From positions 1-21,790 of the IMG/VR virus record IMGVR_UViG_3300027996_000191: a DNA stretch of 21,790 bases. One strand, written 5' to 3'. Positions 931 to 21,725 of this stretch are shown here, piece by piece. Below the pieces are notes generated by a model. The model was not told where the DNA came from. It made no database searches and saw only the letters and a list, made by a program, of their open reading frames with translations. The translations under genes and the position numbers were made by a program. The DNA is from a virus. Numbering within the stretch: the stretch's first letter is position 1; each line of letters begins with the position of its first letter.

Positions 931-1896
931 TTAATTGAAATATCCGTGTGCTTTTGGGCTATTGCAGACCAAACCACAAATTACATCAACGAAACCTCTG
1001 CGTCCGCCTCCCTGGTCTTCCAATTCAGTAACTGATTCGGATTTCAAGGACTGCATACCAATGTACTCAGGATCAATTAAGAGACCTGCATCAGCGTCAA
1101 CTGTGTCAGAACCACTCGTGCGATTTATCCAAAGGCTACTTGCCACTGCCACCGAGCCAAAATCACCCTCATATAAATTTACTGATAAGGTTATTTTCTT
1201 GCTCTCAGCATCTTGGTTAACTTGATATGTGTTACGAGTTGAAGAAGACACTCTTGAGAAGTCAGAAATCTCTCTCTTGAGACTTGGGCCTGCAAGTAAG
1301 GTTAACTGACCACCAGGCATTCCGTTAGCTTCGTAAAGTTCTTGAAGAACATTATTGAAGGTTGTTTCGGTTTGCGTGGCAGTAGTGTCATTAGCAACAT
1401 TTTGGTACTCAGCAGGTACATCAGAAGGTTGTCCACCTACTCCTAACCATTTAAGAAGTCCACGTGTCTTGTAAGGTGCGCCTGCTCCAGAGTCTGCTTG
1501 ACGATCTTGTGAAGAACAAAATGCACTTTCAATTGAGCGCTTAATTTGGCGAATACTTTTAGACTCGGCCAATGCCATTTCGTTTGAAACGCCAGCTGTA
1601 TCTACAAGTTCTTGAATATCAGATATTTGGAACGTATCTCTAAATTTTTGAACGTAAGAACCAAGACGTGCGCGGTTTGCGGTTTGATTGGTGAAGCTTG
1701 TCACATCTTCGCCTTCATTAACGCCAGAAAAATCTGGACTCAAAAGTGAGTCGGCCTGCCATTCAAAGAATGTTCCAGATGCTTTTCCCTTTTTTGCCAT
1801 AGATACCAAAGGTGTAGCCTCTGGCTCTAGGATTGTGATTGTTGACATTATGTCTTCTTTATTTCCGACTGTATTATAGCTACTAGCTTGTGCCAT
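931..1896 (-). CDS. Major capsid protein, SU10/DUF5309-like
   Basis: A 321-residue protein with a strong SD (AGGAGG) ahead of ATG 1896. The layout matches the SU10 major capsid family (HK97 fold). An N-terminal arm names its own target state (ITILEPEATPLVSMAKKGKA, about residues 20-40). An ARLGSYVQKFRDTFQISD segment follows at about 75-93, then a helix typical of the spine (EMALAESKSIRQIKRSIESA). The C-terminal part has beta-rich P-loop-like segments ending with an acidic LEDQGGGRRGF stretch. It would form the procapsid shell together with the scaffold encoded just upstream. Length fits the family. The capsid role is well supported by motif pattern and synteny with scaffold, portal and terminase. 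Confidence 0.85.
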   Translation of the reverse strand: MAQASSYNTVGNKEDIMSTITILEPEATPLVSMAKKGKASGTFFEWQADSLLSPDFSGVNEGEDVTSFTNQTANRARLGSYVQKFRDTFQISDIQELVDTAGVSNEMALAESKSIRQIKRSIESAFCSSQDRQADSGAGAPYKTRGLLKWLGVGGQPSDVPAEYQNVANDTTATQTETTFNNVLQELYEANGMPGGQLTLLAGPSLKREISDFSRVSSSTRNTYQVNQDAESKKITLSVNLYEGDFGSVAVASSLWINRTSGSDTVDADAGLLIDPEYIGMQSLKSESVTELEDQGGGRRGFVDVICGLVCNSPKAHGYFN

Positions 1897-5660: not shown

Positions 5661-7346
5661 TCAATATCCACCACCACCTGTGACCTGTATGTCACGATGG
5701 GTGATATGGTCTGCTCCACTTACAAATAAATAACGCAGGCAGTCAATTTGGTCAGAGAAGTAATCACTCTTACTCTCTCCTGCATATTCAAGCATGGAAG
5801 ATATTGTATTCTCGCACTGATCGGAGAAGTAAAGCTTGGGGCAATTCTTGTCTGTCATGGTTTCTGTATCATCCCAGCTAAGTGCATCATTGATCTTGGC
5901 AATACCTGAGTCTATAGACACACCTGGTGCAGCACGGAATACAAATCCCATGTTACTCATTGTATTGATTATATTACTTTCTCCCTCTTTTGTACGCACT
6001 GTGGCTGCTCCCATGCGTGGGTCAACTATCCGCTCAAATATTTCCTCACCATCCTCCTGTGCTTCAAAGTAATCCTTGTAATCACTGTACCCCCAACCTA
6101 AAGGACGTTGTCCAGGGCCAGGTTTACCCACTGCTTTACCTGCACCATTAATATGTGGGATTGCCCATGCTCCCATCGTGCTGTCTGGGAACTCACGATA
6201 GATGTATATCTTCTTGTCCTTAGTTACACCTGCCCATAATCCAACCCAAGGTTTACTACCACCCGGATCGCATATAAAGTAACGGGTTACATTTACAGAT
6301 GGATCAAGGACAAATGGTATCTTACTATGTTCAATTACATTGGACTCACGCTGGAATTTTGGGAACTTACCTTCAAAGCTTTTACTTGGTATGCCAAATA
6401 ATCGAGCAAGCTTTACCTCCTGTGGTTGCTTGCTGTAGGTACGTACAAGTTCGTCTGCATCTACAAAGGGACTCATCTGTGACCAAAAATAATATATGCG
6501 ACAGTCAGGCCAATTAGCAGACACTTGTTCAGTAGGCAGTTCCTTATCCATTAACGCACTATACTTTGACCTGACTGTCGTAGCTCCTTTCAATAAACTA
6601 TTAACTAATGGCGTGTATCCTTGCAGGGTCGTAAAGGTCAGAATCAAGCGACCATGATTATCGGTAAGTCTTGCCAATAGCGTGTTAAAAATATTCTCAG
6701 GAATCTCCTCATCGGCATGAATTGCATGGGCTGCCCATCCCTCGAAGATTTGTGGGTCTGCCATGTACTGTCTGTAATTATTAAAGTATATCGTACTCCC
6801 ACGCTCGGCATCTGGATGGGTGGGTGGTAGGATTGCTTTCCCTGCATTGAATCCATTCTTCTGTGTATATTGCAGACTATGATTCTCACTCTTCTTCTTG
6901 CTTCTCTTGTACCTTGCCGGAAGCGAGTCCCATATATAACGCTGGGAATCACTTATACTTCTTTCCTCACTGACATGCAAAGAACGTATCTCTGCTTCGG
7001 GTATGTTCTGTGCCAAGTGGACAAGCAAGCGAGATGCGAAGGTGGTCTTGGATGAACGATTACCACCGAGGCAGACATGAATTTTTGTGGAATCCCAATT
7101 TTCCATCACCCTACGCCACCCAGGAAGAGTCCAACCCCATTCGATTGGATCTTCCTTCTCGCTGTTTGGTTGGTCAAGAAGCAAGCGTGTAAGTGTTTCG
7201 GCACGTACAGGATCTTGTACAGCAAGCTTGTCTATCTCCTCATCTGATAACGCACACTTTAACTCTCCTCTATCATACTTAAAGTCATCTGTCCAAGGCA
7301 CGCCAAAGCGTGCGTCTATTTCGTCTGCATAGGTTATTTTACCCAC
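5661..7346 (-). CDS. terL: Terminase large subunit
   Basis: A 561-residue DNA-packaging motor. The ATPase half shows Walker A GGNRSSKT (94-101), Walker B IHADEE (209-214) with catalytic Glu, and a coupling motif LTFTTLQG (236-243). The C-terminal RNase-H-like nuclease half shows the acidic triad region: FICDPGG (Asp360), RIVDPRMG (Asp442) and SDQIDCLRYL (Asp532/535). All key residues are present, so it should be active. It starts with GTG at 7346, inside the last codons of the gene at 7339-7584, so it is coupled to it. Its product works with the portal directly downstream. The usual small subunit is not adjacent; the nearest candidate is at 10044 on the other strand. Confidence 0.93.
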   Translation of the reverse strand: MGKITYADEIDARFGVPWTDDFKYDRGELKCALSDEEIDKLAVQDPVRAETLTRLLLDQPNSEKEDPIEWGWTLPGWRRVMENWDSTKIHVCLGGNRSSKTTFASRLLVHLAQNIPEAEIRSLHVSEERSISDSQRYIWDSLPARYKRSKKKSENHSLQYTQKNGFNAGKAILPPTHPDAERGSTIYFNNYRQYMADPQIFEGWAAHAIHADEEIPENIFNTLLARLTDNHGRLILTFTTLQGYTPLVNSLLKGATTVRSKYSALMDKELPTEQVSANWPDCRIYYFWSQMSPFVDADELVRTYSKQPQEVKLARLFGIPSKSFEGKFPKFQRESNVIEHSKIPFVLDPSVNVTRYFICDPGGSKPWVGLWAGVTKDKKIYIYREFPDSTMGAWAIPHINGAGKAVGKPGPGQRPLGWGYSDYKDYFEAQEDGEEIFERIVDPRMGAATVRTKEGESNIINTMSNMGFVFRAAPGVSIDSGIAKINDALSWDDTETMTDKNCPKLYFSDQCENTISSMLEYAGESKSDYFSDQIDCLRYLFVSGADHITHRDIQVTGGGGY

Positions 7347-8120: not shown

Positions 8121-8292
8121 AATTTACTAAGTCAAATTTTCCCTGGTGGGGCATCTTACGTGGTATCGTTGTCCGATACACTGTGCCACGGTTGTTGATT
8201 GCTAATTGATTCTTGTTCCAAAATCTGTACCAAGCTTCGTTTATTTCTGCTGTGCTTACTGAGCATCCATTTCCTTCCATAAAGTCTTCCAT
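8083..8292 (-). CDS. Small basic protein following the methyltransferase
   Basis: A 69-residue protein with a basic C-terminal half (RTTIPRKMPHQGKF ... ARRKKSMLPRV) and an aromatic helix-like centre (EAWYRFWNKNQL). It overlaps the 3' end of the methyltransferase gene by 37 bases; an in-frame ATG at 8280 would reduce that to 25. No family recognised. Its place in the chain of overlapping minus-strand genes is the main support. Confidence 0.5.
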   Translation of the reverse strand: MEDFMEGNGCSVSTAEINEAWYRFWNKNQLAINNRGTVYRTTIPRKMPHQGKFDLVNYARRKKSMLPRV

Positions 8293-9395
8293 GCTAGTTC
8301 TGCTGTTTGGGGGACAACTCCATTCCCCAAGAGCCTAAGTCTGTCCACCCTGTGCTGAGTCCCATGAGTTGCTCCACCCATGAAGGATTGAGTTTCGGTG
8401 ACCCTTGGTTCTTCCCACTCGTATTGCTCTTCTCCTGGTCTTGCAGGCCATTGTGTTGCTCCTTGCGTACTTTCTCCTCCAAGTAAAGTGGCACTGAGTT
8501 CTTGCCCTTCGACTTGCGAAACTTCAAGCACTTCTCCATCGTCTCCTCGCTCCTTGGTCTGCTCATCGCAGTTGGAGTTGGCCAATTCTTCTTCGCTTCC
8601 TCCGCTAGTATCTTGCCCCCCGTTCCGGGCTTGCGACTGCCTGGGTTGCCTGCTCGTGGGGTTGGCCAATTCATCTGATTCAAGTCTCTCCCCAAGCACT
8701 TCTGATTGCTCTCCTTCGCAGTTCTCGCTCCCTCGATGTGGTCGCTTGCTTGCGGAGTTGCCCAGTTGTCCATTCCGTACTTGATGAAGTTTGGCAGTTG
8801 ATTCAGATGTCCCTTGAATCCCTTTGACTTGTGAAGTACATGCTCCTCTGAGTTCGTCCCTTTGTAATCCCTCGCAGCTGGCGTGGGGTAGTTTCGCAAG
8901 GATGAAGACTCGTTTCCTTTGGTGTGGAGCGCCAACTTCTTCCGCACTGAATATGCCGAACGTCGTTCGATAACCTTCTTCTTCCAAATCGGACAGGACT
9001 CGCCATAGCCCCATCGAGGTATGCCCGGAAACGTTTTCCCAAAAACACCAAACAGGTCTAATTGCCCTGACGTGCTTGAGGATGTATGGCCATAAGTGTC
9101 TTGGGTCTTTTTCTCCTTGTCGTTTCCCAGCTGAACTGAATGGTTGGCAGGGATATCCTCCAATGAGTCCGTGTACTTTTCCACGAAACTCTCGTGCAGG
9201 GAAGGTTTTAAGATCCGAGTAGATAGGTGCGTTATCCATCCTCCCTTCTTCAGTCTTCGCAACCAGGTTTGCTTGGACGAAGGCTTCGATCTCCACATTA
9301 ACGACTGTTCGCACATCCACGCCTGCTCTTCTAATTCCAAGTTCAAGCCCTCCGTATCCGGTACAAAAGCTGATAATGTTTTGGGTATTATCCAC
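8256..9395 (-). CDS. C5-cytosine DNA methyltransferase
   Basis: A 379-residue enzyme expected to transfer methyl from SAM to C5 of cytosine in a specific DNA site. Motifs are in order: I, FCTGYGGLELG (10-20, SAM site); IV, GGYPCQPFSSAG (79-90) with catalytic Cys83; VI, ENVSGH (120-125); VIII, PHQRKRVFIL (157-166); X-like LGNGVVPQTAELAW (356-369). The segment from about 167 to 330, which should hold target recognition, is hydrophilic and contains repeated LGN/LAN-[SP] blocks. It starts with GTG one base past the preceding stop (TAATGTG). No partner restriction enzyme is visible, so it is probably a solitary phage methylase protecting the genome. A second open frame runs through the same DNA. 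Confidence 0.9.
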   Translation of the reverse strand: MDNTQNIISFCTGYGGLELGIRRAGVDVRTVVNVEIEAFVQANLVAKTEEGRMDNAPIYSDLKTFPAREFRGKVHGLIGGYPCQPFSSAGKRQGEKDPRHLWPYILKHVRAIRPVWCFWENVSGHTSMGLWRVLSDLEEEGYRTTFGIFSAEEVGAPHQRKRVFILAKLPHASCEGLQRDELRGACTSQVKGIQGTSESTAKLHQVRNGQLGNSASKRPHRGSENCEGEQSEVLGERLESDELANPTSRQPRQSQARNGGQDTSGGSEEELANSNCDEQTKERGDDGEVLEVSQVEGQELSATLLGGESTQGATQWPARPGEEQYEWEEPRVTETQSFMGGATHGTQHRVDRLRLLGNGVVPQTAELAWKTLWKEMDAQ

Positions 9396-9418
9396 ATTAC
9401 CTTTGGGATTGTTCCCAT
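8294..9418 (-). CDS. Overlapping +1-frame ORF with WPTP-type repeats
   Basis: A 374-codon open frame, one base downstream in phase from the methyltransferase frame and covering nearly all of it. The second part, roughly from residue 115 (coordinate about 9076) to the end, resembles phage proteins I recall: SGQLDLFGVFGKTFPG (117-132), four [NW][YWA]-P/A-TP blocks (176-180, 218-222, 250-254, 278-282), and a C-terminal LNPSWVEQLMGLSTGWTDLG (343-362). The four blocks lie exactly under LPHAS, LGNSA, LANPT and LANSN of the methyltransferase. The N-terminal 110 residues look like a frame shadow, so a true start, if any, is internal. Either this is genuine dual coding, or the look-alike family in databases is itself an out-of-frame reading of methylase genes. 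Confidence 0.35.
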   Translation of the reverse strand: MGTIPKVMWIIPKTLSAFVPDTEGLNLELEEQAWMCEQSLMWRSKPSSKQTWLRRLKKGGWITHLSTRILKPSLHESFVEKYTDSLEDIPANHSVQLGNDKEKKTQDTYGHTSSSTSGQLDLFGVFGKTFPGIPRWGYGESCPIWKKKVIERRSAYSVRKKLALHTKGNESSSLRNYPTPAARDYKGTNSEEHVLHKSKGFKGHLNQLPNFIKYGMDNWATPQASDHIEGARTAKESNQKCLGRDLNQMNWPTPRAGNPGSRKPGTGGKILAEEAKKNWPTPTAMSRPRSEETMEKCLKFRKSKGKNSVPLYLEEKVRKEQHNGLQDQEKSNTSGKNQGSPKLNPSWVEQLMGLSTGWTDLGSWGMELSPKQQN

Positions 9419-14367: not shown

Positions 14368-15630
14368 CTAAAATGGTTTCTTATCATGTAATCTAGTATC
14401 AACTCGTGTTGAGAAACGCCCGGTTGGCTTGGTAAAAGTTAGCTTGGTTGCACGCACCTCGCCATTTCTATTCTTAGCAACATTGCAAATAATATCATCA
14501 TTGGTTGGATCTACTTCTTTCTCACGATGCATGAGTAACACACAATCTGCATCTTGTTCTATACTTCCTGACTCACGCAAGTCAGAGAGCATGGGATTGC
14601 GGTTAGCACTTTCTAACGCTCTGTTGAGTTGAGAAAGGGCAAGCACAGGAACTTCATACTCCATTGCCATTGCTTTCAAGGAACGAGAAATGTGGCTCAC
14701 CTCTTGCACTCTTGAGTCATGCCCAGGTGAGGAGAGTAGTTGCAAGTAATCGATTACGATTAAACCAAGCTCACCTTCAAGTCTTTGCTTGGCAACAAAT
14801 GCCTCAATTGATTGCATGGTTGCTTGGTTATCATCTTTGAATGTAATAGGCCAAGTCTGCATGGCTTGCACTTGTGTCTCTAACTTTTGCTTATGTCCAG
14901 CATTGAGAAATCCCTTACCTGTTGGTTTGCGCACACCACTTGCATTGGATAAAAGTCTACCTGCACATTCAGATGATGACATTTCTAAGCTTGCATAGCT
15001 TGCCCTTAAACCACGCTTTGCAGTCTCATATGTCATTTGTATTGCTAATGCACTCTTGCCTACTCCTGGGCGTGCTGCAAGGACGTACAAACTACCTTTC
15101 TTGAATCCACCTCCAAGAATAGCATCTAACTTTTCCAATCCTGTGGGGATTGCTTGTGTACCACCTGCATCCACTTCAAGAAATTCTGCAAATGCTTCTT
15201 TGCTTGCTGCACCACATGCAACCACACCCTTTCTTTGACTAAGTGATTTTGCAATGGTGTTAACAAAGGTCTGACTTATCTCTTCTGCTGGCTTGCTCTC
15301 TTTTAAATCATCGTTTGCTTGCCATAATGCACGCTCCACGGATCTCGTGTTACGATGATCAATTAAATATTCAATGTATCTTTCAATGCCACCACCACCA
15401 TACTTCTCGCTCAAAAAGATTACTTCTTGTTTTAGCTCTGGATGTTCTATGATTACATCTATCTCATTGGCAGGTGATAAACGTAAGCACGTTTCAAAGA
15501 TCGTGGAACGATCCATGGAGGAGAAGTCATCCTTGGTTAATGATTCACCTGCTTGTGCAGTGGCAACTCCACTTTCATCATGCAGCATGGATGAGAGAAC
15601 TGCTTGCTCTGCAAGTTCGTAATCAATCAT
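14368..15630 (-). CDS. dnaB: Replicative DNA helicase DnaB-like
   Basis: A 420-residue protein with an N-terminal helical domain (about 1-130) and a RecA-like motor: Walker A ARPGVGKS (186-193), H2/Walker B IVIDYLQLL (291-299), H3 SQLNR (333-337) and the arginine-finger region SDLRESGSIEQDAD (349-362). It should be a hexameric 5'-3' helicase opening the phage replication fork. At 420 residues it is slightly shorter than typical bacterial DnaB (about 450-470). Its ATG overlaps the end of the ribbon-helix-helix replication protein gene, which probably encodes its loader or organiser. It is the last gene of the leftward early block. Confidence 0.93.
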   Translation of the reverse strand: MIDYELAEQAVLSSMLHDESGVATAQAGESLTKDDFSSMDRSTIFETCLRLSPANEIDVIIEHPELKQEVIFLSEKYGGGGIERYIEYLIDHRNTRSVERALWQANDDLKESKPAEEISQTFVNTIAKSLSQRKGVVACGAASKEAFAEFLEVDAGGTQAIPTGLEKLDAILGGGFKKGSLYVLAARPGVGKSALAIQMTYETAKRGLRASYASLEMSSSECAGRLLSNASGVRKPTGKGFLNAGHKQKLETQVQAMQTWPITFKDDNQATMQSIEAFVAKQRLEGELGLIVIDYLQLLSSPGHDSRVQEVSHISRSLKAMAMEYEVPVLALSQLNRALESANRNPMLSDLRESGSIEQDADCVLLMHREKEVDPTNDDIICNVAKNRNGEVRATKLTFTKPTGRFSTRVDTRLHDKKPF

Positions 15631-18489: not shown

Positions 18490-18710
18490 TCGTCAGAACT
18501 CCTTCCTTCGGTTTTTAACCATTTGTTAATTTCTTTTTTATCCCATGCAAATCCACGTCCACCTCGGCATCTCATGCCATCAATGATGTAACATGTTAAA
18601 CCTTCATCCTCATGGAATTGATCCAAGGATGTTTGCGATTTATAGCCCATAAGTTTGAGTGCTTTCTTGCTGGTGATAAGGTATTTCTTTGCACCTTGAT
18701 TTCGTGCCAT
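18474..18710 (-). CDS. Small HTH protein, excisionase-like
   Basis: A 78-residue protein starting MARNQGAKKYLITSKKAL at ATG 18710, which shares one base with the stop of the nuclease gene. Residues 10-25 (LITSKKALKLMGYKSQTSLD) resemble the winged-helix of MerR/excisionase-type proteins. The centre contains MRCRGGRGFAWDKKEINKWL, a pattern common in small phage DNA-binding proteins with an invariant end Trp-Leu. With an integrase in the same block, a directionality-factor role is plausible but not proven; control of the replication genes is an alternative. Confidence 0.55.
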   Translation of the reverse strand: MARNQGAKKYLITSKKALKLMGYKSQTSLDQFHEDEGLTCYIIDGMRCRGGRGFAWDKKEINKWLKTEGRSSDEWLID

Positions 18711-19687
18711 CACGCAGACTTCCTTTCATTTTCCCAACGAAGAGCGGTAGAAAATTCAGTCATGTCCACCATGTTACGATTACCTACTTTTCGTTTCTCA
18801 AGTTTATGTTTCTTTACAACCTTACACACAAAGCTTCGACTCACTCTAAACTTATCTGCAATCTGTGTAATGCTCAGTCTATTAGTTGTAAATAAGCCAC
18901 CAAGGTTTAGCGTTTTAATGTCATCCGTGTAGCCAGGCCATACATCAGTTGCCAGGCATTTACCATATAAGCGAATAGCATCAAGCACTCGTGGAATCTC
19001 TTTTTCTATGTCGTTGTTATCCAATGCATAACATGCAGTTGCATATGGTTCACTCTTCTCAACCACCAAGAACACAAACTGCTTGGGTCGCTCGCCCATC
19101 TGCCGTAATGCAGTCATGTAATATGCTGCCTGGAATGCATAGCCAAATTGACGCACGCTCTTGGCAAAGCCTTTCTCACTTGCATCCATGGTTGTCTTTA
19201 AGTCTATGACCATTCCTGTCTCGGTATTATATAAGTCAGGACGAACCTTGCAGGGTGTGCCATCGATCTCAAAGAATCCTGTATGTTCAACCTTGCACGA
19301 TGGATGATATAGCATATCCATTAACAATGGATGTTGGCGTGCAGATGCTGCTACTTCCATGCACATGTTATAGTCAGACTCTGGTAACCAACGCTTGTTT
19401 GGTTCTGCTGATTCCATCTCTGCCATTGCATCTTTGTATGCTTTGGTTCTGCTGGAGTTACCATCAATCTCTGTTGGCTTGCATCCAAATTCAATATCTA
19501 CTAGTGCAGGTTCTAATGCAGCAGTGTGTACTAAGCTACCATTCCTTAATGCTGGTGTGCTTGGCGTGGGGAACTTCATCGAATGCTTCACCTTGAGTGG
19601 GCAAGAGCCGAGCAATTGTCTCGCTCGACTCGAACCCAACGCAGGGTCTGCATGATAGTCCTCGTTACTAATATTAGGACGTAACAT
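18710..19687 (-). CDS. RecE-like exonuclease with C-terminal HTH
   Basis: A 325-residue protein of the RecE/exonuclease VIII-type PD-(D/E)XK group: an early LGSSRARQLL helix, GSLVHTAALEP with conserved His55, GTPCKVRPDLYN (Asp151), VIDLKTT (Asp162, Lys164) and GYAFQAAYY (Gln186). All catalytic residues are present. The core ends at WPGYTDD IKTLNLGG (about 250-264). Residues 266-325 then form a helix-turn-helix (LSITQIADKFRVSRSFVCKV) with a basic tail, which normal RecE-type proteins lack. ATG 19687 lies one base past the preceding stop. It would resect dsDNA for annealing; the partner encoded upstream is SSB-like. Confidence 0.85.
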   Translation of the reverse strand: MLRPNISNEDYHADPALGSSRARQLLGSCPLKVKHSMKFPTPSTPALRNGSLVHTAALEPALVDIEFGCKPTEIDGNSSRTKAYKDAMAEMESAEPNKRWLPESDYNMCMEVAASARQHPLLMDMLYHPSCKVEHTGFFEIDGTPCKVRPDLYNTETGMVIDLKTTMDASEKGFAKSVRQFGYAFQAAYYMTALRQMGERPKQFVFLVVEKSEPYATACYALDNNDIEKEIPRVLDAIRLYGKCLATDVWPGYTDDIKTLNLGGLFTTNRLSITQIADKFRVSRSFVCKVVKKHKLEKRKVGNRNMVDMTEFSTALRWENERKSA

Positions 19688-19688
19688 A

Positions 19689-20264
19689 TCAATAAGGGAC
19701 TTCGTCCTCGTCTTCAGCAACAGGTGGTTCAAATGCTGCAAATGGATCTTCTCCATCAAATAATGCAGGTAGATTTATTGCCTTTAATTCTGCCTTGGCA
19801 ATAGCTCGCAGATCATCATCCAACTTTTTAATTGGCTTTGGATTCATGGCATAGGTTGTTTCCAATCCTTCACCATTCCTGACAACTGAGATGTCGTACT
19901 TCCGGCAGTCTCCCCAATCCTCATCGTTAGCAAGTTGCAATAACTCTGATTGTAGTTTTGTCTGCGTCATCTCCAATATCTGCACTTTACTCTCTGCATA
20001 ATTATAAACAACAAACGCATAAAAACTGCGTGGTTTATCTTCAAATGCCTGGGGTGCTTCTGCACCTTCTGCCCAACGGATCGGACGCTTCTTGCCATCC
20101 ACAACTGCCCAGCCTAACGTTCCACATATAAAGCCAGGAGTAGGCTTATCATCACTCGATCCGATTATTCGGAACTTATTATCTCCCTGCTGAAACCTCA
20201 TATAGTTTCCAGCGCCACCACCACCCTCTGAAGGTGCTTTTATATTACTTGGTAAGAATGCCAT
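19689..20264 (-). CDS. ssDNA-binding-like recombination protein
   Basis: A 191-residue protein. The N-terminal NYMRFQQGDNKFRIIGS (20-36) and central VYNYAESKVQILEMTQTKLQ (87-106), DWGDCRKYDISVVRNGEGLE (116-135) are a pattern I know from phage proteins paired with RecE/RecT-type or Cas4-like nucleases and thought to bind ssDNA through an OB fold. The C-terminus is acidic and ends DEDEVPY, similar to the SSB tail (acidic residues then a Pro and an aromatic) that docks partner proteins. It stops one base before the RecE-like start. No SD precedes ATG 20264; the region upstream carries GCTACA units. Confidence 0.65.
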   Translation of the reverse strand: MAFLPSNIKAPSEGGGGAGNYMRFQQGDNKFRIIGSSDDKPTPGFICGTLGWAVVDGKKRPIRWAEGAEAPQAFEDKPRSFYAFVVYNYAESKVQILEMTQTKLQSELLQLANDEDWGDCRKYDISVVRNGEGLETTYAMNPKPIKKLDDDLRAIAKAELKAINLPALFDGEDPFAAFEPPVAEDEDEVPY

Positions 20265-20707: not shown

Positions 20708-20730
20708 TTTAAATTAGAAGTTTAAATTAG
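20708..20730. repeat. Direct repeat TTTAAATTAG at the integrase 3' end
   Basis: Two exact 10-bp copies (20708-20717, 20721-20730), 13 bp apart; the second covers the integrase stop. This could be an arm-type site or an att-related repeat, but AT-rich repeats also arise by chance. Confidence 0.35.
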
Positions 20731-21725
20731 GATGCCTTTAGTTGTGGCAATCCTGAGTATATTCGATCCGTGATCTTTGTGTCTGCGTGACCCAACGCTT
20801 TACTCGCTGCATAGATACCATCACTTCGCATAATTCTGTGACCACAGTATTTACGTAATAAATGTATTCTGTAAGTCTCTTTCACGCCACACTCGTTTTT
20901 CAAGAAGGTGTTGAATATACGAGGAAGAAAATCCTTTGGTGCATCAAGCACTAATACATCTGATGCTGCATCACCACGAAGGTCTTGAAATATATCCCAA
21001 TAGGTAGGGTCACATGGCCTGTCCTCAAAGTCTGTGGGCTTTGCACGCTTAATACTCTTGGGTTGCCAGACTCGTATCAATTTATTGCCATCTAGCGTGC
21101 TATAAAAATCACTCCACTTAATCCGCTTTATCTCGGATCTACGCAAACCAAGTCCATACCCAAGCAAGAATGCCATGTAAATACTTGGTCGCTCAAATCG
21201 AACTTCCTCGCACTTTGCAATAATTCTATCAATTGCATCTGTGGGAATGAATGCTTTCACGCCAATTGGTGCAACTCGGTGTGCAGTCCAATTGCTAAAG
21301 AAGCGAGCTTCAATTCCACAAGCCACATAGTACTCGCACATGTTGCGACTGAACAAACTCTTCGCACGCCTTAACCTTTCCTTGTGTTGTGGGAATACCT
21401 GTGCGTAGTGTGCTGGTAAAGTTAAATTATACTGCGGATGCGTGCCACCCAAGTACCTTGTGTCCATGTCCACATTCATACCCAAGTCAGTAAGCACTAA
21501 TTTAAAAATGCCAGCACATGCCTTCATCGTCTTGTACGAAGGTGGTGTAAAATTAACCGCACGACAGTCAAGATAGTTGTAGATTAGTTCACTAATGTTA
21601 ATAACGCGCAGTGGAGGCGCTACGAAATCTAACTGTATTGGGGTATTAGTCATTCTTGTAGTAGGTAAGTTGTGGGTAGTTACCTCTAATAAGCGATTTG
21701 GCGTTTGTAAAGTAGTATTGTTCAT
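20727..21725 (-). CDS. int: Tyrosine integrase
   Basis: A 332-residue site-specific recombinase. The catalytic set is present: Arg near 195 in LGLRRSEIKRIKW, a beta-hairpin Lys in WQPKSIKRA, HLLR (His288, Arg291), His313 in LGHADTKITDR and the nucleophile Tyr323 in RIYSG. The N-terminal 100 or so residues would hold the core-binding domain; a classical arm-binding domain is not obvious. It should integrate and, with a directionality factor, excise the phage. It starts at ATG 21725; a second ATG at codon 25 is possible. The 65 bases beyond it, to the window end, are very AT-rich with no gene; attP is not identifiable. Confidence 0.9.
   Translation of the reverse strand: MNNTTLQTPNRLLEVTTHNLPTTRMTNTPIQLDFVAPPLRVINISELIYNYLDCRAVNFTPPSYKTMKACAGIFKLVLTDLGMNVDMDTRYLGGTHPQYNLTLPAHYAQVFPQHKERLRRAKSLFSRNMCEYYVACGIEARFFSNWTAHRVAPIGVKAFIPTDAIDRIIAKCEEVRFERPSIYMAFLLGYGLGLRRSEIKRIKWSDFYSTLDGNKLIRVWQPKSIKRAKPTDFEDRPCDPTYWDIFQDLRGDAASDVLVLDAPKDFLPRIFNTFLKNECGVKETYRIHLLRKYCGHRIMRSDGIYAASKALGHADTKITDRIYSGLPQLKAS

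Follow-up and report, generated by a model that had tools for sequence, protein, structure and literature searches.

The window, that is, the whole stretch of 21,790 nucleotides of viral DNA analysed here, carries on its minus strand a gene that is open in two overlapping reading frames, M and W. The neighbours of this gene suggest a tailed temperate-type phage, with matches to a major head protein (window 931-1896), the large terminase subunit (weak; 5661-7346), a DnaB-like helicase (14368-15630), exonuclease VIII (18710-19759) and an integrase (20727-21725). The M frame (8256-9395, minus strand, as are all features of this gene given below) starts with GTG and encodes a C5-cytosine DNA methyltransferase of 379 amino acids that matches PF00145 (1.6e-31) and PHROG_363 (1e-54). 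Motifs I-VIII and X are in frame, including the catalytic Cys83, ENV (residues 120-122), QRKR (159-162) and the C-terminal LGNGVVPQ, all of them present as listed in a preliminary description of this DNA. The motifs of the catalytic core, I, IV (PCQ), VI (ENV) and VIII, are invariant in the relatives, and motif X (GNxVVP) is likewise conserved, with LRLLGNGV invariant in 40 relatives. In the AlphaFold2 model of M, residues 1-175 and 361-378, which comprise the catalytic core and the motif-X helix, mostly have high pLDDT, and residues 178-357 have pLDDT below 50 and are predicted to be disordered; the closest structure found for this model with Foldseek is M.HaeIII (1dct, E 8.7e-13). The canonical motif IX is absent from the M frame. 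Because of this absence, the predicted disorder of residues 178-357 and the constraint on the W frame in that region, M does not have the make-up of a single-chain C5 methyltransferase, in which one frame contains both the recognition domain and motif IX.

The W frame (8294-9397, minus strand) is overprinted on M in the +1 register and encodes a predicted protein of 367 amino acids, supported by a match to PHROG_1008, openness in the relatives and constraint at the codon level. The longest +1 ORF runs from ATG 9418 (8294-9418, minus strand; 374 amino acids), in agreement with the 374 open codons of the preliminary description; the true start of W is probably ATG 9397, since this codon belongs to a conserved AUGUG. 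This frame contains each of the signatures that had been described for it: SGQLDLFG, four xxTP blocks and LNPSWVEQLMG. PHROG_1008 (‘DNA methyltransferase') matches W at 1.3e-26; its profile spans W through the motif-IX-like segment and then motif X, and this family seems to mix nested members with split ones, in which W is a separate ORF. Searches of Pfam and NCBIfam with W yielded no family match, the profile of the window W found no methyltransferase and nothing useful in the PDB, the W of a single split form (L168) had no PDB match either, and one W stretch had no megablast match among plasmids. The sole match to a solved structure comes from a profile of split W proteins, the IX-X part of which aligns with plant DRM methylases at a weak E of 0.051. 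Modelled alone with AlphaFold2, W has a mean pLDDT of 49.7, as might be expected of half an enzyme, and a comparison of this low-confidence model with viral structure models gave no meaningful fold match.

The two proteins probably start at a shared AUGUG (9393-9397, minus strand), in which AUG (9397-9395) opens W and GUG (9395-9393) opens M. Among 82 loci, the start region reads ATGTG in 58, the window included, and GTGTG in 12, for a total of 70 with RTGTG, so that overlapping AUG/GUG or GUG/GUG codons lead into two open frames; in these loci, the first codon opens W (MWIIPK...), and M starts from the GTG that follows two bases downstream. The remaining 12 were not scored as twin starts: the sequences of L032 and L127 start within the gene, and in most of the rest W has a start codon of its own close to that of M. 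Upstream of the twin start, at 2-4 nt, the window has a weak Shine-Dalgarno match (AAAGG), and an SD-like stretch within 20 nt is found in 65 of the 82 loci.

Relatives were collected from IMG/VR by tblastn with W (61 loci, with identities as low as about 33%) and by a separate scan with M, from which 80 of 233 loci were kept; two further searches used consensus-like peptides of this family as queries, and the conclusions rest on the loci returned. In each of the 82 distinct full-length loci, M and W are both open for 256-495 codons, with +1 as the constant offset. When the codons of the window gene are permuted synonymously, 4.9 stops are predicted in the +1 frame from motif IV to X-12, with P(open) of about 0; the open +1 frame in the window is not due to chance. 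W is open in 80 of 80 scorable relatives in each of three regions, the N-terminus to motif IV, motifs IV-VIII and the target-recognition region (TRD), compared with 4.8%, 27% and 11%, respectively, expected from permutation synonymous for M, and M is open over the TRD and the motif-IX segment in 78 of 78, compared with 1% expected from permutation synonymous for W; these permutations were made within each gene, and the figures are not multiplied because the loci are related and hence not independent.

A sample unbiased for W is provided by the scan with the M alignment, which gave 80 loci with 72 scored genes of the nested type. From motif IV to just before motif X, W is stop-free in 58 of these 72 genes (1.1% expected), and most of the 14 exceptions stay open in W as far as the IX segment; 58 of the 72 genes have an IX-like motif in W next to motif X, versus 0.6 expected. 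The control frame, M+2, is stop-free in none of the 72. The canonical methylases of phages Javan584, P-KP2, SPbetaL6 and Golestan contain +1 stops at chance numbers, so that this frame is closed, and lack an IX-like motif in it; three of the four have an in-frame motif IX of the LTPREC type. A permutation analysis of W similarity over motifs IV-VIII in bacterial loci was set aside because its loci had been chosen for their similarity to W and scores were high in the control frame too. The M+2 frame and the canonical methylases bear on the reading that W is an out-of-frame artefact, a shadow of conserved methylase codons and composition. Parts of W over motif IV do mirror conserved M residues and reflect ordinary M-frame constraint, as such a shadow would, but the permutation tests with their M+2 control, the canonical methylases, the W-frame constraint on the recognition modules and the existence of separate W ORFs with M closed all speak against it. 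With W stop-free in most of the M-selected genes and the +1 frame closed in the canonical methylases, this reading is rejected and has, in our estimate, almost no chance of being correct.

The two frames can be told apart by selection: position 3 of W is position 1 of M, so the phase of the substitutions separates them. Between relatives, M position 3 accounts for 0.64 of the phase total in motif IV (GGYPCQPFSSAGK, with Cys83; 9123-9161), where M is the constrained frame, for 0.64 in a pre-IX element (WPARPGEEQYEWEEPRV; 8400-8450) and for 0.70 in motif X (RVDRLRLLGNGVVPQ; 8307-8351), the latter two also under M-frame selection. Position 1 of M, i.e. position 3 of W, changes most in the recognition modules of W (0.61) and in a segment under W-frame selection (PKLNPSWVEQLMGLSTGWTDLG; 8333-8398; 0.60), which is IX-like by pattern and position, with weak profile support. 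From the start to motif I, the rates at M positions 1 and 3 are equal (0.41/0.41), and the N-terminal part of W over motif I and the following M sequence (9194-9397) is constrained in both frames. The overlap-aware ratio, in which change that is synonymous in M and nonsynonymous in W is divided by change that is nonsynonymous in M and synonymous in W, is 5.4 in motifs IV-VIII, which include the motif VIII region (EEVGAPHQRKRVFILA; 8895-8942), 0.22 in the TRD modules, 2.7 in the pre-IX element, 0.13 in the IX-like segment and very high in motif X. Relative to doubly synonymous change, W-nonsynonymous change (sn/ss) is 0.10 in the N-terminal part, from the start to motif IV, and 0.55 over motifs IV-VIII, where W is weakly constrained. 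In the shared modules A-C, identity is 0.94-0.98 for W versus 0.71-0.74 for M. Because the phase shares, the overlap-aware ratios and the module identities agree, selection alternates along a single DNA stretch, acting on M in motifs IV-VIII, on W in the WPTP modules, on M in the pre-IX element, on W in the IX-like segment and on M in motif X.

Between motifs VIII and IX, in the W frame, lies a tandem array of exchangeable modules. Across the 82 loci, the recognition regions of W consist of 293 blocks with a median length of 39 amino acids that fall into 66 clusters; the same blocks occur at differing ordinal positions, and 73 distinct arrangements are seen. The window has four modules. The cassette of module 1 (YPTPAARDYKG...; 8765-8890) is also found in other relatives; module 2 (WATPQASDHIEGARTAKESNQKCLGRDLNQMN; 8669-8764) recurs in 47 relatives and module 3 (WPTPRAGNPGSRKPGTGGKILAEEAKKN; 8585-8668) in 63, each at ordinal positions 1-5, with identities of 0.955 in W versus 0.744 in M for module 2 and 0.98 versus 0.713 for module 3; module 4 (WPTPTAMSRPRSEE...) spans 8459-8584. 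Their position and shuffling suggest that these are target-recognition modules.

In some of the relatives, the two frames are split. M then ends shortly past motif VIII, and W forms an ORF of its own that includes motif X, as in actinophages Ovechkin, Datway, Ashwin and KBurrousTX and in loci L168, L232, L243, L248, L252 and L318; motif X thus stays with whichever chain reaches it. A further two loci (L321, 857-1465, and L325, 2496-3353) have motif X in the W frame and no clear IX-like segment, and look like frame-swapped or degraded intermediates between the nested and split forms. A common type of W segment over M motifs VI-VIII, SxTxPxSGMTRNGxxxxLP, is seen in actinophages and an Acinetobacter phage (L157-L160, L164) and is kept even where W is a separate ORF. 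WPTP proteins with no open methylase frame beneath them occur in actinophages, Brevibacillus, Ligilactobacillus and others, and these separate ORFs refute the notion that every WPTP protein is the shadow of a methylase. The preliminary description had left the choice between true dual coding and an out-of-frame artefact, and had named beforehand the marks of the latter: +1 stops or frameshifts among close relatives, methylase third positions free of excess constraint, and WPTP homologues that always overlie a methylase frame. The artefact fails on each count, given that the relatives show no such stops or frameshifts, that the third positions of M codons are under strong constraint over the WPTP modules and the IX-like segment compared with motifs IV-VIII, and that stand-alone WPTP proteins exist; dual coding is supported by the open W frame, the frame-specific constraint and the stand-alone W. 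The recognition region and IX-like segment of W, the twin start and the breadth of the family go beyond that description.

The split forms also suggest another route to a complete enzyme, a +1 ribosomal frameshift after motif VIII that would join M to W in one chain with motifs I-VIII, the array and motif IX. The ORFs of the split forms overlap in +1 exactly where the slip would be needed, and W is weakly constrained over motifs IV-VIII, as this scheme would allow. However, W has its own conserved start, the twin RTGTG, and from that start to motif IV it is open and constrained in the relatives, neither of which a slip further downstream requires; moreover, in the nested form, the fused chain would be left without motif X. 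A frameshift is therefore improbable.

The distribution of motifs points to two polypeptides instead. M and W are complementary: the IX-like segment is in W, and motif X is in M in the nested form and in W in the split form. We consider it very probable that the locus encodes a two-polypeptide C5-cytosine methyltransferase, one subunit of which is nested in the +1 frame of the gene for the other, with W most likely being the target-recognition and motif-IX subunit. W could conceivably be a real overprinted protein with a different role, e.g. a regulator or an anti-restriction factor, and the lack of a Pfam or NCBIfam match and of a fold match for its model would fit such a role. What makes this quite improbable is that M lacks motif IX and a folded recognition domain and its partner W provides a recognition-like array and, in the correct order, an IX-like segment, that precisely in those loci with a truncated M, motif X is found in W, and that nearly all loci examined have W within a C5 methylase gene or immediately after it.

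Under the two-subunit reading, a ribosome at the AUGUG would begin either at AUG, making W, or two bases on at GUG, making M. M would contribute AdoMet binding and catalysis (motifs I-VIII, Cys83) together with motif X, and its part between motifs VIII and X, an out-of-frame reading of the recognition array, would probably be an unstructured linker. W would supply the array, one to seven shuffled cassettes of about 39 amino acids that start with WPTP or a similar sequence and are probably one target-recognition domain each, and the motif-IX-like segment. The two chains are expected to form a single enzyme, as those of M.AquI and M.EcoHK31I do; its set of targets would vary with its cassettes, by analogy with the multispecific methylases of Bacillus phages, and its likely role is to shield phage DNA from host restriction. 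With such an enzyme encoded in two interleaved frames, every cassette swap would have to read in both.

The arrangement is widespread. Scanning genomes with W turned up relatives in 373 stretches; 80 were kept, from Firmicutes, Bacteroidota, Proteobacteria and other groups, and M is fully open under W in 69 of the 74 loci examined. In one sample of genomes from the family of the Paenibacillus alvei locus, W has a match in 11 of 151. Five near-identical copies of the nested gene are present on a single Roseovarius chromosome, OX638333.1 (L215, L217, L219-L221). Existing annotations capture the pair piecemeal: nested W is recorded as ‘g49/g62 internal gene' in Paenibacillus phages Diva and Lily (L150, 1974-2678; L161, 2007-2498), both frames are named DNA methyltransferase in Xanthomonas PhiXhv-18, and Synechococcus Ssp-JY39 has a ‘hypothetical protein' with coordinates that fit the W frame, with M listed in its relative Yong-M2-251. 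The literature searched, the coverage of which excluded most subscription papers, contains no description of family-wide nesting. If the interpretation holds, few same-strand dual-coding arrangements in phages are longer, more widespread or better supported than this one, the WPTP proteins make up the half that is missing from methylases now annotated as complete single chains, and specificity predictions made from the M frame use an out-of-frame shadow. The AUGUG twin starts would gain a clear use in long frames, natural split methylases with swappable cassettes would be at hand, and annotation rules that forbid large overlaps would be concealing real subunits.

Split C5 enzymes such as M.AquI and M.EcoHK31I are known; what seems new is the nesting as a family rule, the overprinted array and the twin start. 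The gene for the large polypeptide of M.EcoHK31I contains the small ORF, in a different frame, and M.EaeI is of the same kind. It appears likely that there is a very large family in phages and prophages with catalysis in one frame and exchangeable recognition cassettes plus motif IX in the other, part of which starts at AUGUG, and that this general design includes M.EcoHK31I, an enzyme regarded as an oddity. Both polypeptides of M.EcoHK31I (YGGCCR) are required, the small one having motif IX and the large one motifs I-VIII and X (PMC3404938), as in the nested form here. The recognition domain of that enzyme is, however, assigned to the large subunit, whereas here selection places recognition in the nested frame, and it is a single restriction-modification enzyme; here, a whole family shares the arrangement, along with arrays of cassettes and, in the clade of the window, a twin start. 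M.AquI (CYCGRG), with motifs I-VIII in the alpha subunit and the distal recognition region and motifs IX-X in the beta subunit, matches the split forms; as far as it is described (PMC3404938), it is not nested, whereas the nested form here keeps motif X in M. Tandem recognition domains for several targets are also known in the C5 methylases of Bacillus phages SPR, SPbeta, phi3T and H2 (PMC8936443), but those enzymes are all encoded in one frame, and SPbetaL6, one of the controls here, has motif IX in frame and a closed +1 frame. In Escherichia coli, initiation at AUGUG and GUGUG yields two overlapping products, and the ambiguous starts of pqiA, tamA and narQ likewise consist of overlapping start codons with two translatable frames (PMC9841429); the alternative frames there are short and of unknown use, whereas the second frame described here extends over 367 codons and is conserved and constrained.
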